This document shows, piece after piece, positions 1 to 5,766 of a DNA stretch of 38,382 bases. The stretch is taken from assembly GCF_016938855.1 (NCBI RefSeq), contig NZ_JAFHAP010000015.1, positions 1 to 38,382 on the forward strand. Reading direction: 5' to 3'. A program made the position numbers and the translations under genes. Under the pieces are notes generated by a model. It did not search any database and was not told where the DNA came from. It was given only the letters and a program-made list of their open reading frames with translations. Numbering within the stretch: the stretch's first letter is position 1; the number at the start of each line of letters is the position of its first letter. The stretch is from Polycladomyces zharkentensis. GTDB lineage: Bacteria > Bacillota > Bacilli > Thermoactinomycetales > JIR-001.

Positions 1-948
1 CTGGCCGTCCGTCTGATGAGTCGCATTCGCGACGTGCTTGGGGTCGAACTGGGCATCGGCAGCCTTTTTGAGGCACCCACCGTGGCCGGTCTCGCCGAAC
101 GGCTCGAGAGGGGCGTCAGTCAAGGCGCGTTGAACGTGCTGCTGCCGCTCCGCACGCATGGAGAGCGATTACCGCTGTTCTGCGTGCACCCGGCGGGAGG
201 ACTCAGTTGGTGCTATGCCGGACTGATGCGGCATTTGGGAGCGGATTATCCGATTTACGGACTGCAGGCACGCGGCATTGCTCAGCGTGAGGAACTTCCG
301 AAGACCCTGGAGGAAATGGCTGCGGATTATATCGACCACATTCGCTCAGTCCAACCCACCGGTCCTTACTGTCTTCTGGGCTGGTCCCTCGGAGGGAATG
401 TCGCGCATGCGATCGCGTGCGAACTTCAGAACCAGGGCGAGCAGGTAGCTCTGCTGGCCATGCTCGACGCTTATCCGAGCCACTTCCTGCCTCTCGGAGA
501 AGCACCCGACGAACAGGAAGCGCTGATCGCCCTGCTCGCTTTGGGCGGTTACGATCCGGAAAGTCTGAAAGATCAACCGTTGCGACTTTCCAGCGTCATG
601 GAGCTGCTGCGCCGCGACGGCAGCGCGTTAGCCAGTCTTGAAGAGTCTGTCATTTTGAATCTGAAGGAGGCCTATGTGAATTCCGTCCGTATTCTGGGGG
701 CCTTTGTACCCAATCGATATCATGGCGATTTGTTGTTTTTCAGATCAACTGTGATACCTGACTGGTTTGATCCGATCTCCCCGGAAACGTGGGCTCCCTA
801 TGTTGATGGACGGATTGAACAATATGACATCGCTTGCCGGCATAAGGACATGTGTCAGCCGGGACCGCTTGCCGAGATCGGGCGTATCCTTGCCGCCAAG
901 CTGAACGCCCTGCACCATCCCGCAAAACGGTTGGAGGGAGGAAGATGA
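1..948 (+). CDS. Non-ribosomal peptide synthetase, C-terminal carrier end plus thioesterase (5' partial)
   Basis: The frame is open at the window start, so this is the 3' end of a larger synthetase. The first codons read [10 protein letters not shown], which is what normally follows the GGHSL phosphopantetheine site of a peptidyl carrier domain; the site itself lies just outside the window. From about codon 55 a type I thioesterase domain follows: HPAGG near codon 63 (oxyanion region), GWSLGG with the nucleophilic serine near codon 129, an LDAYPS segment that probably carries the catalytic Asp, and RHKDMCQPG near the end with the catalytic His. The domain would release the finished peptide from the assembly line by hydrolysis or cyclisation. 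An MbtH-like gene starts 3 bp after the stop, so the genes are co-transcribed. The product (siderophore or other peptide) cannot be told from this fragment. Confidence 0.93.
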
Positions 949-951
949 CTG

Positions 952-1173
952 ATGACAAATCCATTCGAGAATGCGGACGGCACCTTCTTTGTGCTGATCA
1001 ATGACGAGGGCCAGTATTCCCTCTGGCCCGCTTTCGTTCAGGTGCCGGCCGGTTGGACCGTTGTTTATGGGCCGGAGAGTCGCCAAGCATGTCTCGACTA
1101 CGTCGACTCAAAGTGGACGGACATGCGGCCGAAAAGCATTCGTTCCCTGGCGGGCATTGCTAAAGGGGAGTAA
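952..1173 (+). CDS. MbtH-like NRPS accessory protein
   Basis: A 73-residue protein with the MbtH family pattern: NPFEN near the start, [18 protein letters not shown], then [10 protein letters not shown] with the conserved tryptophans. The length is normal for the family. MbtH-like proteins bind NRPS adenylation domains and help their folding and amino-acid activation. The gene begins 3 bp after the thioesterase stop, with GGAGGGAGGAAG upstream as ribosome site, and is followed 2 bp later by an exporter gene. This tight spacing supports one operon. An overlapping ATG at 945 is in another frame and is not used. Confidence 0.95.
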
Positions 1174-1175
1174 AT

Positions 1176-2603
1176 ATGCTGATTTCACCAAACCAAAAGG
1201 TCGTTGTCAGTATGTTATATGTGACCGCGATGTTTATGGCTGCCATGGACGCAACGATTGTAAACGTAGCATTGGTGACAATCAGTAAAGAGCTTCGGGT
1301 GCCTCCTTCGGCCATGGGAACCGTGAATATCGGATACCTGGTCAGTCTGGCAGCATTTTTGCCGGTCTCAGGCTGGCTGGGTGACCGATTCGGTTCCAAA
1401 CGCGTGTTTTTGCTTGCGTTCGGTGTGTTCACATTCGCTTCTGCATGGTGCGGCATTGCGGACAATTTGACTGCACTGAACTTGTTTCGCATGCTCCAAG
1501 GTGCGGGAGGCGGATTGCTGACGCCCATTGGCATGGCAATATTATTGCGGACATTCCAACCGCATGAACGACTCATCATATCCAGAACGCTCATGATCCC
1601 CATTGCGCTGGCGCCCGCAATGGGGCCCATTCTTGGCGGATTTCTTGTGGATTTTGTATCCTGGCGTTGGATTTTCTTTGTCAATCTCCCCGTCGGCATT
1701 CTTTGCCTGCTGTTTGGCTCCGTCTTTCTGAAGGAGTACAAGGATGAAAGTCATCAGCGATTTGATTTGCCGGGATTCCTGCTTTCTGCGTCAGGCTTTG
1801 CAATGGTGATGTACGCATTAACCCAAGGGTCGGCAAGAGGGTGGGGCTCCCCGGAAATTTTGGGACTGGGTCTGGGAGGAACGCTGTTACTTTCTATCTT
1901 TGTCTATATGGAGTTGCGTGTCAGTCAACCGATGCTGAATGTACGGTTGTATTCTGATCGATTGTTCCGAACGATGGGGTTGCATTCGCTGCTCATCGCT
2001 GCGGGCTTACAGGGAATGTTATATGTGTTTCCGCTCATGTATCAGGATGCCATTCAGGCATCAGCGCTGGATGCCGGACTCACAACTTTTCCCGAAGCGC
2101 TCGGCTTGATGCTTGCATCCCAGTTCGTCCCATGGTTCTACTCAAGGCTGGGGCCGAAGCGAATGATGACAATCGCTTTGATATGTGCCATTGTGCTGTA
2201 TGTGCTGTTAAGCTTGGTTCAAAAAGATACGAGTCCATGGCTGATCAGGGTTCTGTTGTTTGGTGCCGGTTTTTTCCTGGGAAATGCGGTTGGCGTGGTA
2301 CAGGCTTCAGCTTTTAACACGATTTCACCATCTTCCATGGGACAGGCATCGACTTTGTTTCATGTTCAGAACCGGTTGGGGGCCGCACTTGGTGTGGCTT
2401 TGCTGGCCAGCATACTTTCCGGCATCCGTACTGACACTGCCACACTGTTGGCGTATAAAACCGCGCTGTTGTGTTCCACAGGCTTCCTGTTGGTTGCCTT
2501 GTTCTTCGCGCTCCGCATTCGGGATGCCGATGCAGCTGCAACGATGCGCAAACCAACAACTTTGCAGAAATCAAAGGTTCCACTTACGGAGAGTGAAGGA
2601 TGA
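1176..2603 (+). CDS. DHA2-family (EmrB/QacA-like) MFS exporter
   Basis: A 475-residue, very hydrophobic protein of the drug:H+ antiporter-2 type, which usually has 14 membrane segments. Visible family motifs are AMDATIVNVAL in the first helix with an acidic residue at about 25, and motif A GDRFGSKR near residues 69-76. The segment around PAMGPILGGF and the following SWRWIFFVNLP stretch are typical of DHA2 proteins. It should export small molecules at the expense of the proton gradient. Its place between an NRPS end with MbtH and a phosphopantetheinyl transferase suggests that it exports the peptide made by this locus; that is inference. The ribosome site AAAGGGGAG overlaps the mbtH stop. Its own stop overlaps the next start by 4 bp (ATGA), so translation is probably coupled. 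Confidence 0.93.
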   Translation: MLISPNQKVVVSMLYVTAMFMAAMDATIVNVALVTISKELRVPPSAMGTVNIGYLVSLAAFLPVSGWLGDRFGSKRVFLLAFGVFTFASAWCGIADNLTALNLFRMLQGAGGGLLTPIGMAILLRTFQPHERLIISRTLMIPIALAPAMGPILGGFLVDFVSWRWIFFVNLPVGILCLLFGSVFLKEYKDESHQRFDLPGFLLSASGFAMVMYALTQGSARGWGSPEILGLGLGGTLLLSIFVYMELRVSQPMLNVRLYSDRLFRTMGLHSLLIAAGLQGMLYVFPLMYQDAIQASALDAGLTTFPEALGLMLASQFVPWFYSRLGPKRMMTIALICAIVLYVLLSLVQKDTSPWLIRVLLFGAGFFLGNAVGVVQASAFNTISPSSMGQASTLFHVQNRLGAALGVALLASILSGIRTDTATLLAYKTALLCSTGFLLVALFFALRIRDADAAATMRKPTTLQKSKVPLTESEG

Positions 2604-3358
2604 CAGAGTGGGAGATCATCCATGAAGTGCCCAGACTTGACCATCACATTTGTCAGGTCTGGTGGGCTCGTGTTACAGATCTGCAGCCATGGCACGAGGA
2701 GTTGCTGAACGAGGTGGAGCATGGCCGGGCACAAGCGTATCGGAACCCCAGTGACCGTGCACGGTTTATTCTTGGATGTGCATTGAGTCGGCTTGTATTG
2801 TCTGCACAGCTGATGGTCGCTCCTCAAGAGGTGCCGCTGGACCGTACCTGCCCAAAATGCGACAAACCGCATGGCCGACCTAGGCTCCCGTCCGGAATGC
2901 CGCAACTGTCGGTTTCGCATTCCGGTGATCGAGTTGTTGTTGCCGTTACAACGGCAGCGCCTGTCGGTGTCGATGTTGAGCAAGTCCTTGATTCCTTCGA
3001 TTTCAAGGAGATCGCAGGAGGGGTGTTGGCAGCGTCGGAGTACGCACAGCTGATGCAGTTGCCGCCAATGGAACAGTTGGACGGATTCTTCACGTATTGG
3101 ACTCGGAAAGAGTCCGTGCTCAAGGCAACGGGGGACGGCCTGTCCGACCCACTCACCAGCATCACGGTTACCGGTCCTGGCGAGCGTGCCCGTTTGTTGT
3201 CTTTCAGAGGACAATCCTGTCTGGTCAATCACACGACCATGATCGATTTGCACCCCGGGCCGGGGTACATTGCGGCTCTTTCCATTTTGAATGATGCTCC
3301 TTATGAAGTTCGCGAGTTTGATGGAGCGGGGATCTTGCATTCTGCTTATTTAGAATAA
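2600..3358 (+). CDS. Sfp-type 4'-phosphopantetheinyl transferase
   Basis: A 252-residue protein that fits the Sfp/AcpT family. Residues 123-127 read GVDVE (metal-binding acidic residues) and residues 167-175 read WTRKESVLK, the W-x-x-K-E-S signature. The SVSHSGD stretch near 104-110 is also typical. The enzyme moves the phosphopantetheine arm of coenzyme A onto carrier domains, turning apo-NRPS into the active form. Sfp-type enzymes are broad in substrate; here the natural target is the NRPS whose end lies upstream. A CPKCDKPHGRP segment near residue 84 is cysteine-rich, as in several bacillary relatives. It overlaps the exporter by 4 bp and is the last gene before a terminator. Confidence 0.93.
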   Translation: MTEWEIIHEVPRLDHHICQVWWARVTDLQPWHEELLNEVEHGRAQAYRNPSDRARFILGCALSRLVLSAQLMVAPQEVPLDRTCPKCDKPHGRPRLPSGMPQLSVSHSGDRVVVAVTTAAPVGVDVEQVLDSFDFKEIAGGVLAASEYAQLMQLPPMEQLDGFFTYWTRKESVLKATGDGLSDPLTSITVTGPGERARLLSFRGQSCLVNHTTMIDLHPGPGYIAALSILNDAPYEVREFDGAGILHSAYLE

Positions 3359-3474
3359 AGATCTCCTCGGGTACGTTTTTCACCCCGAAGTGGTGAAGAG
3401 ACCTCGTGAAAGTTCACAACGTAAACTTTTCCGGCCGCTTCGGGACAACTTGAAGTTACCTTAGATGGTGTAAG

Positions 3475-3498
3475 CTACCCGGCCAGGGTAGTTTTTTT
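3475..3498 (+). terminator. Rho-independent terminator of the NRPS operon
   Basis: CTACCC and GGGTAG form a 6-bp stem around a GGCCA loop, followed by seven T residues. It lies about 115 bp after the Sfp-type gene, the last gene of the plus-strand operon. Confidence 0.8.
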
Positions 3499-3577
3499 GT
3501 TTCTCTGTCAACCGGATGATGATAATCCCATTGATCATCGTCCACTATCATTCTCGGGAATGACAAATACAGAAAAA

Positions 3578-4048
3578 GTCGCCTGAAAGCCCACGGCGCC
3601 CATAGGAAGTACCCTTGGGGTATTTCAATCGTGGGATGAAAGGCGGCGTTGCCCGGCATCTCCTTTTGGGAATGGTAAGGGCAACCAATTTGCTGTATAA
3701 TTGAACGTACGAGCGGTGCTCATCCCACTGGTAGTGGGTTTGTTCCTGTGTACGTCATGGTATGAGGTTCCAGTGGCGAACAAATCTCTCCCACTGGGTA
3801 AAACCATGAGAGTGAGGCAAAAAGAACTAGCGTACTGGTAATACCACGGGCACTTCTGTTGGTCGCAGGTACGCCGCCCATGTGGGTACATACGGTAAGA
3901 AACGTAGAACCGCATGGGATGGGGTGATGACACACCCCTTAGCTTGAGGGTTGCCCGAAACAGAAATGGACTGAGGGCGTTAACCACTCAAGAATCCCAC
4001 GGTGACCATAGGGAGTGCCTGTGGTACTTTAGCCGTGTGGAGTGTCAA
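3578..4048 (+). mobile_element. Transposase-less IS200/IS605-like element or remnant, rich in hairpins
   Basis: No credible gene lies here. Two similar composite hairpins sit in the same orientation at 3578-3646 and 3996-4040. Each has an outer stem starting CCCACGG and closed by CGTGGG or CCGTGTGG, and each holds an inner segment CCATAGG(A/G)AGT(A/G)CC that forms its own small hairpin (TACCC/GGGTA at 3610-3622; AGTGCC/GGTACT at 4014-4028). The second one ends in TTTAGCCGTGTGGAGTGTCAA-type sequence, like right ends of IS200/IS605 elements, with TCAA at 4045-4048. Further hairpins lie between: CCCACT/AGTGGG at 3724-3738, CCAGTGG/CCACTGG at 3770-3797 and GGGGTG/CACCCC at 3921-3938. A TATAAT hexamer is at 3696-3701. 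Best reading: a non-autonomous derivative, perhaps keeping an omega-type RNA region. A decayed TnpB 3' end is the alternative. Confidence 0.5.
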
Positions 4049-4096
4049 AAATCATTAGGTTGGAAGCGCCTGATCATTCCCCTGGAGTTCAAATCA

Positions 4097-4122
4097 AATC
4101 CCCCGAATCATATCGGGGGATT
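4097..4122 (-). terminator. Terminator downstream of the cyclophilin gene
   Basis: AATCCCCCGA and TCGGGGGATT form a perfect 10-bp stem with a 6-nt loop. Read on the minus strand it starts 4 bp after the ppiB stop and is followed by a T-rich tract (TTTGATTTG). Confidence 0.75.
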
Positions 4123-4126
4123 GTCG

Positions 4127-4564
4127 TCATTCTTCCCACACGCGCACTTCTTTCATCCGGTCACCGGGCTTCATGTTTTTGACTGTTTCCAATCCTTCGG
4201 TCACTTGCCCGAATACGGTGTGGACACCGTCCAGATGGGGTTGGGCTTCATGGCAGATGAAAAACTGGCTTCCACCGGTGTCTTTCCCGGCATGGGCCAT
4301 GGAGACGGCGCCGGGAATGTGTTTGTGGGGGTTGCCTTCCGTTTCGCATCGGATGGTGTATCCCGGTCCTCCCATCCCGTTTCCGTACGGACAACCGCCT
4401 TGGCTGACGAAACCGGGAATCACGCGGTGAAACGTCAAACCGTCATAAAACCCCTCGTTGGCCAGTTTTTCAAAGTTGGCGACGGTTCCCGGTGCGGCTT
4501 CCGGGAACAATTCGATGAGGATTTTCTCGCCGCTTTCCATCGTGATGCTGCCTTTTTTGGCCAT
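4127..4564 (-). CDS. ppiB: Peptidyl-prolyl cis-trans isomerase, cyclophilin type
   Basis: A 145-residue single-domain cyclophilin without a signal peptide, so cytoplasmic. Typical motifs are [15 protein letters not shown] near residues 45-59, with the catalytic Arg in FHRV, then GAVSMAH, GSQFFI and a VFGQVTEG segment. The enzyme speeds cis-trans isomerisation of Xaa-Pro bonds during protein folding. The length and the start match small bacillary PpiB proteins. A GGAGGAGT ribosome site lies 7 bp before the ATG. It is the second gene after the P450 gene on the same strand, with a 39-bp gap, and ends at a clear terminator. Confidence 0.95.
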
Positions 4565-4603
4565 GTGTTCACACTCCTCCCGTCACCGATTGTATCACAC
4601 TCA

Positions 4604-5766
4604 TCATGAAGCAATGGTCAGTTTTTCATATCCATTGAGAAAGATCGTTTTCACAGGCCGGGCTTCCTCAACCTGAATTTGTTCCTTCCGGTTCCAATGG
4701 GAAAGGAGCGCCTGCATCGCGATGTGTGCTTCCATTCTCGCCAGCGGTGCCCCCAGACAAAAATGAATTCCTTTGCCAAACGCGAGGTGGGGATTGGGTT
4801 TACGGTCCGCTATAAATCGGTCGGGACGGTCGAAAACCTGTTCATCCCGATTGGCGGAAGCGATCCACGCCACCACCGTGTCTCCCGCATGGAGGATCTC
4901 CCCGCTCAGCCGAACATCACGGGCAACGGTGCGTGTCACAAACCGAACGGGAGAATGATACCGCAACACCTCTTCGACAAACAGTGGGATGTTCCCGTAG
5001 TCTTCCTGTAAACGGCGGTACGTTTCGGGATCTTCGGCCAGAGAGTAGACGGCATTGCCGATCAGGTTGGTCGTCGTGATATGCCCTGCCAGCAACAGCA
5101 AGAAACAGATACTGAGAATTTCTTCTTCCGATATCTGTCCACGGGAATGGGAGTCGATCAACAGGGAGATCAGATCGTTTTGCGGCCGTTGTTTTCGTGC
5201 GTGGACAATGTCCCGGAAATATTGCTTCATTTCCAGTTGTACATTTCGGATACGCTCTCGCTCGTCCGGTTTGGTTTCATCAGCAAAACGGATGTTGGTG
5301 GGATCGTTTTCCATCATGAACAATCGGTCCACCCACTGGCGGAACATCGCCTGATCTTTCGAAGGAACGCCCATCATGTCCGCGATGACCGTCACCGGGA
5401 GCGGGTAGGCGAAATCTCTGATCAAGTCGAAAACGGGCGGGGTTTGCGACAGGAGATCCTTGGCAATGGTACGGATGCGGGGTTCCCATTCTCGTAGAAG
5501 CGCAGGTGAGAAGGATCGGTTGACGATGGAGCGTAATTGGGTGTGCTGTGGCGGGTCCAGGGAGAGAATGCTGTCGTGGAAGACGGGCTCTTCCTGTTGG
5601 CGAGCCGGTTTTGCGAGGAAAAGGTGTGATGATCGTTCAGAACCCGGTTCACGTCTTCGTAACGAAAGACTTCCCAATACCGGTGTTCACGATTGTAGTG
5701 AAGAGACGACTCTTTGCGCATACGAGTCCACCAATCTTCCAGCTTCCCTGCAAAACGTGTGGTCAT
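4604..5766 (-). pseudogene. Cytochrome P450 (CYP107-like), split by one frameshift
   Basis: Two overlapping frames together make one bacterial P450. The N-terminal part (start ATG at 5766, ribosome site AAAGGGG) reads MTTRFAGKLEDWW and then VFRYEDVNRVLNDHHTFSSQ. The rest, in the next frame, carries PPQHTQLRSIVNRSF, the oxygen-binding helix AGHITTT, the ExxR helix EEVLRYHSPVR and the heme loop FGKGIHFCLGAPLAR with the cysteine ligand. The break is at a run of four T on the plus strand, 5609-5612 (AAAA in the gene). Adding one base there restores SQKPARQQEEP and a 387-residue protein. All catalytic motifs are intact, so this is either a very recent inactivation, a phase-variable tract or a homopolymer sequencing error. 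P450s of this type hydroxylate small hydrophobic substrates with ferredoxin partners. Confidence 0.85.

Follow-up and report, generated by a model that had tools for sequence, protein, structure and literature searches.

What sort of element ends in two composite hairpins with the same inner insert, and does that insert belong to the ends or is it something of its own? The question is posed by a stretch of 38,382 nucleotides from Polycladomyces zharkentensis (the whole stretch analyzed, called the window below), in which a left and a right hairpin with the stem CCCACGG each carry an insert containing CCATAGG(A/G)AGT(A/G)CC. An earlier note on this DNA had described them as the ends of a transposase-less IS200/IS605-type element with a conserved branch in both loops. 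Both composite hairpins are indeed there, and the insert common to them is a separate unit of 24-26 nt, CGACCRNNGGRAGTGCCYRTGGTR. We consider it probable that two mobile things are nested at this locus, a guide-RNA-carrying, PATE-like host and a 24-nt micro mobile repeat that has invaded it.

The borders of the host follow from its copies. It spans about 3571-4048 on the forward strand (478 bp); near-full copies in its own genome match 3568-4049, share both end points and lie in unrelated flanks. A BLAST search of that genome with 3540-4080 gives 58 matches, to be read as pieces and not as places, and full or partial copies occur in all three family genomes searched, many of them in the own genome. 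Related copies are found in Marinithermofilum abyssi, in Paenactinomyces and in two more genomes of the order. The multi-copy, non-autonomous element that had been proposed is therefore real, and the objection foreseen for it, a lack of other copies, falls away. Most aligned copies have TTAC before the left end (ATAC at 3567-3570 in the window copy) and TCAA at the right end (4045-4048, retained in most copies), the latter as expected for the right end of an IS200/IS605 element; with flanks unrelated, this amounts to a fixed target tetranucleotide and no target duplication. By analogy with ISDra2 and IS608, ATAC would serve as target or TAM. The left flank of the window copy has no DNA match in genomes G001 or G002, whose DNA does match the PPIase side. 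Further out, at 16-3358 of the window, genes for a thioesterase, an MFS transporter and a 4'-phosphopantetheinyl transferase stand in a row, an arrangement like that closing a peptide or polyketide gene cluster.

No transposase gene lies between the hairpins, as the earlier note had said: the two listed frames that overlap the element, 3625-3987 (minus strand) and 3914-4609 (plus strand), have no Pfam match. A search of the window against Rfam gives no match above the gathering score and one sub-threshold snoRNA match (E 0.78), so that neither HEARO, the RNA of IscB, nor another Rfam family is matched; a search for IscB itself (RRXRR) is negative, with a control search equally silent. Nothing in these results makes the region part of an ordinary gene or of a single known RNA family, the other outcome that would have overturned the first description. 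A search of phages for the host element finds no match.

The left-end hairpin occupies 3590-3635, with arms CCCACGG (3590-3596) and CGTGGG (3630-3635) and the insert in its loop; in copies that have no insert there it reads CCCACGG/CCCATGG-TTTNAATCGTGGG. A second left-end hairpin, TTGCCC ... GGGCAA (3649-3684), changes from GCCC/GGGC to GCTC/GAGC between copies. The right-end hairpin, CCCACGG ... CTTTAGCCGTG (3996-4037), has the insert on the 5' side of its loop, and its stem CCCACGG at 3996-4002 pairs with CCGTG. The two end hairpins are about 75% alike; a generic repeat finder at default thresholds reports no direct or inverted repeat in 3300-4400.

The ancestry of these ends can be read from relatives that still carry transposon genes. 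L037, in the own genome, is a TnpB element (PF07282 and PF01385; its best hits among solved structures are named IS605 OrfB and Cas12f proteins) that shares with the host the left end, the second left-end hairpin and the right 141 bp, the hairpin inserts being missing. In L042 and L043 homology starts at 3834, directly behind tnpB remnants, so that 3830-4048 is the counterpart of the RNA at the right end of such elements; altogether the right ~215 nt of the host match the region behind tnpB. L346 (genome G012) has open TnpA (PF01797) and TnpB (PF07282, PF01385) frames and the same right end, insert included, its left end not being recognized. In L347 (G002) the same left end accompanies an open TnpA frame, on a contig that stops inside tnpB. 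The end hairpins of the host are thus common to transposase-bearing relatives, the left one in L347 and the right one in L346, as in a PATE. The full-length relatives that the earlier note had advised looking for were accordingly found in part, as TnpA and TnpB with one end or the other; among the relatives compared, none has both ends together with both genes. In the own genome and in G001, the search for a whole TnpA gave only partial matches and fragments.

Eight plasmid records, 7 from Bacillus and 1 from Klebsiella, match the right-end and RNA part of the host at about 75-80%; in the two of these that were inspected it lies behind tnpB, and the right-end hairpin has a different insert. 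The Bacillus and Klebsiella plasmid loci L076 and L077 show such a TnpB right end, with another branch inserted in its hairpin. A second TnpB clade (L128-L147, and the TnpB loci L036, L039, L044, L046 and L049) has right ends that mostly read ..GTGTGGAGCAAGTCAC, and carries the insert in the right-end hairpin in the contexts listed.

What lies between the ends looks like a gene for a guide RNA. The element region folds far better than expected (z -5.5 versus shuffles, none of 100 shuffles being as good), and RNAalifold on 15 copies from several genera gives 99 pairs, 30 of which have both sides changed and the pairing kept in at least one copy. The doubly compensated pairs sit in two regions: the omega/reRNA-like scaffold at 3830-4048, homologous to the region 3' of tnpB in L042, L043 and L037, and a 5' module with a long covarying stem at about 3752-3815 (alignment columns 154-217), which is not seen in the TnpB-carrying relatives compared. 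Upstream, a TATAAT box at 3696-3701 resembles a -10 element and is a weak candidate for the start of an RNA gene; over 24 copies it reads TATAAT in 15, T/CAGAAT in 2 and neither in 7. A full sigma-70 promoter pattern has no match in the window. ISDra2 is described (PMC8612924, in the part of that paper available) as making a right-end RNA whose guide is its final stretch, about 16 nt of flank, and if an RNA of the present element ran past its right end in the same way, the guide would occupy 4049-4064, a stretch that varies between copies.

From homology and covariation, then, the element apparently carries a guide-RNA gene, whose transcription, binding by TnpB and use of a guide would be as in ISDra2. 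The inside of the host would be a structured RNA gene composed of the 5' module and a tnpB-type guide-RNA scaffold ending at TCAA; because the scaffold ends there, flanking DNA would become the guide. A Y1 TnpA encoded elsewhere, working on both end hairpins, would have spread the element, and a TnpB supplied in the same way may take up its RNA and cleave the vacated donor site. We think it rather doubtful that the element is instead a plain PATE without a working RNA, its fold a leftover of tnpB elements and its ends alone mattering. Such an account draws on the Haloquadratum PATEs, described by their near-terminal palindromes and in some cases as fused ends only (PMC3119063, in the accessible part of its text), and on the negative results above for a full promoter and, in the own genome, for a whole TnpA. 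It does not sit well, however, with double compensations far from the ends, some of them in the 5' module that the compared TnpB relatives do not share, or with a -10 box retained in 15 of 24 copies. The guide-RNA reading of the host is the one followed here. In the source cited, the Haloquadratum PATEs resemble the host in having no transposase, IS605-type near-terminal palindromes and no target duplication; the host differs in being bacterial and in having its core filled by a covarying tnpB-type RNA and the further 5' module. As far as the consulted part of PMC8612924 goes, the reRNA of ISDra2 (omegaRNA) is like the putative RNA of the host in taking its scaffold from the right end and its guide from the flank, with the TAM equal to the target, while the host has no tnpB and has the 5' module and loop inserts.

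We now turn to the insert, hereafter the unit. Searched with up to 3 mismatches, its pattern has two matches in the window and none in 100 shuffles: 4003-4026 on the plus strand, in the right-end hairpin (24 nt), and 3842-3865 on the minus strand, an inverted copy in the loop of an internal RNA hairpin that the earlier note had missed when it found the two end copies. The left-end copy, at 3597-3622, is diverged and 26 nt long. Taken in its own reading direction, the unit follows the 5' arm and precedes the loop in each of the three slots. It had been thought a conserved branch of both ends; it is present in both hairpins, and it is not a fixed branch of them, since it comes and goes copy by copy and recurs in repeats of other phyla (below). 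Among 24 full copies it is missing from the left slot in 9, from the internal slot in 8 and from the right slot in 12. The slot states (left, internal, right) are +++ in 7 copies, ++- in 5, --- in 4 (L160, one of these, has a larger internal deletion rather than a clean empty loop) and -++ in 3; the rarer ones are +-- in 2, and -+-, +-+ and --+ in 1 each. The internal unit is cleanly absent in L006, L016, L153, L155, L163 and L165, and also in L037 and L229. On a tree built without the unit columns, at least 7, 5 and 7 changes are needed for the left, internal and right slots; the --+ copy L157 (G001), whose right-end slot holds a different or diverged insert, is left uncounted at that slot. 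That insert is 27 nt long and perhaps represents a second family of micro-units.

Near-identical copies can differ in their units. Two units separate L003 (+++) from L006 (+--), although the rest of their sequence differs at just 2 of 405 positions and 3 gap columns; L008 (+++) and L010 (++-) differ at 3 of 402 other positions and 5 gap columns. The strongest single case for an optional unit is the pair L154 (G001) and L163 (G002), which share one insertion point, as the left flanks match over ~45-50 bases and the right flanks over 384 at 91%: L154 has all three units and L163 none, with 26, 24 and 24 nt cleanly absent. These two copies also differ elsewhere, and the difference in all three slots could be a single gene conversion of the whole element, just as gene conversion among copies within the genus could shift units between equal slots. 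L026 and L151 give a second hint of orthologous copies.

Another explanation is that the insert is no more than a variant tip of the IS605 end hairpins, passed among copies and IS families by homologous recombination, and that no mobile thing of 24 nt exists. The end hairpins do recombine, because left and right ends share stems and solo left/right fusions exist, and the unit sites listed for the genus outside this family are mostly in one right-end slot, that of the second TnpB clade ending GTCAC, with solo left/right fusions besides. However, the internal copy is inverted and sits in a loop with unrelated flanks, and other phyla have the unit in palindromes and in a gene unlike IS605 ends. 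The explanation is hard to hold for the inverted slot and for the IS110 gene described below, and we regard it as improbable. On balance we favor the reading that the unit is an independent mobile element, present over many bacterial phyla, which inserts at R|C without target duplication, favors loops in palindromic mobile repeats, is carried along by these and by TnpB guide-RNA genes, and would be moved by an enzyme.

Its distribution outside the host carries much of this argument. With up to 3 mismatches, genomes G000, G001 and G002 have 56, 16 and 17 matches (0, 1 and 0 for the reversed control). Within the order, 13 of 42 genomes have the unit at up to 2 mismatches, and further slots appear there: ahead of the right hairpin in L168, L170, L178 and L180, and within a different element in L169, L174 and L179. 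In a sample of the class, searched at up to 1 mismatch, it occurs in 13 of 398 genomes (control, 2 of 398), 12 of them among the 38 sampled from its own order and 1 among the other 360; since nearly all class matches fall in the one order, the distribution is patchy. An exact pattern scan of 84,980 species genomes yields at least 120 exact stretches, with titles from many phyla, against a chance expectation of about one (our own arithmetic, assuming equal base use). The 80 loci listed include Sulfurovum, KSB1, Oleiagrimonas, Kangiella, Brachyspira, Methyloglobulus, Poribacteria, Falkowbacteria, Clostridiales and others; single taxon assignments may be wrong, because many of the source genomes are MAGs. 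In 11 genomes picked as holders of the unit there are 3-45 matches each at up to 2 mismatches, and none for the control in any of the 11. The unit is thus a dispersed, multi-copy repeat in the 20-30 nt range of SDR-type micro repeats. Since distantly related bacteria carry it in repeats that are unrelated to one another, it seems to rank among the smallest known mobile DNA elements.

An IS110 transposase gene of Oleiagrimonas soli contains the unit as an in-frame insert of 8 codons, which two relatives, 54% and 50% identical, do not have. In a Campylobacteraceae MAG (L251) an open frame whose product resembles an aminotransferase encloses a unit-bearing palindromic repeat, and L209 has similar flanks. 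The Brachyspira region L232 belongs to a very abundant dispersed repeat of ~190 bp, many copies of which apparently do not have the unit-bearing stretch; the orthologous locus in G414 was rejected as an empty site for the unit, being without the whole host repeat and not merely the unit. The exact pattern has no match in viral contigs, and a search of phages and E. coli is negative with a query of one two-unit tandem, which could miss diverged units. The best plasmid match (Burkholderia multivorans), obtained with a one-variant tandem as query, proved on reading to be only part of the unit and was not counted. Six unit loci from other phyla fall in no Rfam family.

A different account would see in the unit a site that does not move and whose function, for instance as a protein-binding hairpin, has led selection to conserve it in many repeats. 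Conservation of the unit ends and loop is strong across 108 sites, and two of the four unit variants folded are clearly better than shuffles (the other two are not), both of which might be expected of such a site. The account does not explain, however, why copies of one repeat lack the unit precisely, why the unit interrupts an IS110 transposase in frame, or why its distribution is patchy and its copies can be tandem, and we hold it to be highly improbable.

How a mobile unit would sit in its targets can be seen where empty counterparts are available. Several Brachyspira contexts, L259 and L226 have exact empty counterparts, in which 26 of 26 letters match, and other contexts have near-exact ones; because the exact empty sites show no duplication, insertion is precise and without target duplication, and for the contexts with an empty counterpart presence and absence are thus of the SDR type. 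At 108 distinct single sites (up to 2 mismatches) the preceding base is a purine in 105 and the following base is not G in 105, being C in 71. In 17 of 154 sites the unit stands in tandem, head to tail. The unit itself starts with C and ends with R, and therefore each insertion recreates R|C. A fixed pairing of unit positions 1 and 13 (C-G to T-A) held at three of three changed sites, yet was rejected on exceptions in a wider listing.

The flanks of the unit also tend to pair with each other. A first test for hairpin loops, with 64 of 76 sites kept, found none of 300 re-pairings as low as the observed value. A second test started from 59 exact sites with long flanks and kept 26 host contexts after collapsing on a shared 7-mer beside the unit, a crude procedure under which some contexts may still be related; the mean is -7.81 versus -6.65 when re-paired (22 of 1000 re-pairings as low) and versus -6.00 for local windows (24 of 2000 bootstraps as low). 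Neither test, nor the count of base preferences, includes tandem sites or sites close to a locus end, and both tests also omit sites with N. The preference for hairpin loops is moderately supported and, once related hosts are collapsed, modest; the weaker figure is the one to trust.

Taken together, the guest would be a hairpin-forming unit of 24 nt that inserts precisely and without target duplication, prefers an R|C junction, with a purine ahead of it and mostly C behind, frequently within palindromic repeats, and also stacks head to tail. We tentatively propose that an HUH or tyrosine-type enzyme joins it at R|C, the unit being at that stage a small intermediate, either single-stranded or circular; since the unit has C...R ends, an insertion by this route would always leave a new R|C target behind. 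Routes through RNA or template switching are alternatives.

Very short mobile repeats have been reported before, in cyanobacteria (SDR) and in Haloquadratum (SMR-A, whose mobilization is enigmatic). The SDRs of Nostoc, reportedly described by Elhai and colleagues in 2008, are said to be 21-27 nt long, with a common hairpin fold in some families, to be nested in minitransposons and tandem repeats, and to be confined to one group of cyanobacteria; the unit, compared with them by description and not by sequence, would be spread more widely. Cyanobacterial SDRs are mentioned in work on REPINs (PMC3116915, in the part available). SMR-A, according to the consulted part of PMC3119063, is like the unit in inserting into near-terminal palindromes, those of PATEs and IS605 elements, without target duplication and in an enigmatic way, and differs in its size (~110 bp), its inverted terminal repeats and its restriction to one archaeal species, against 24 nt and many phyla; at 24-26 nt, the unit was rejected as a form of SMR-A. 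By these analogies, which for SDRs rest on description, the unit may be akin to both in the way it works. A 28-nt insert that disrupts the type 2 right-end hairpins of five Halanaerobium IS605 elements, where a PATE-like element also has the type 2 right end, can be likened to it by description and not by sequence (PMC7290912, the accessible part of which reports no further sites for that insert). A literature search lacking most subscription papers yielded no earlier naming of the unit and, in 5.39 million papers, no occurrence of six of its 16-mers.

The unit brings together in one case a spread over many phyla, exact empty sites, a consensus target and plus and minus alleles at a shared insertion, and so makes the old question of how 24 nt of DNA can move a testable one; if the reading is true, the unit would rank with the smallest and the most widespread of known mobile DNAs. 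The host, a transposon cut down to its ends and a tnpB-type RNA region, offers a natural case for testing trans-acting, RNA-guided maintenance.

In G000, L116, L120 and L122-L125 are solo mini elements of ~75 bp, in which the 5' half of the left end and the 3' half of the right end are joined through a unit-bearing hairpin. Core deletion between the two palindromes, as in these elements, is described for the PATEs of Haloquadratum in the part of PMC3119063 consulted, and the mini elements may be likened to solo LTRs.
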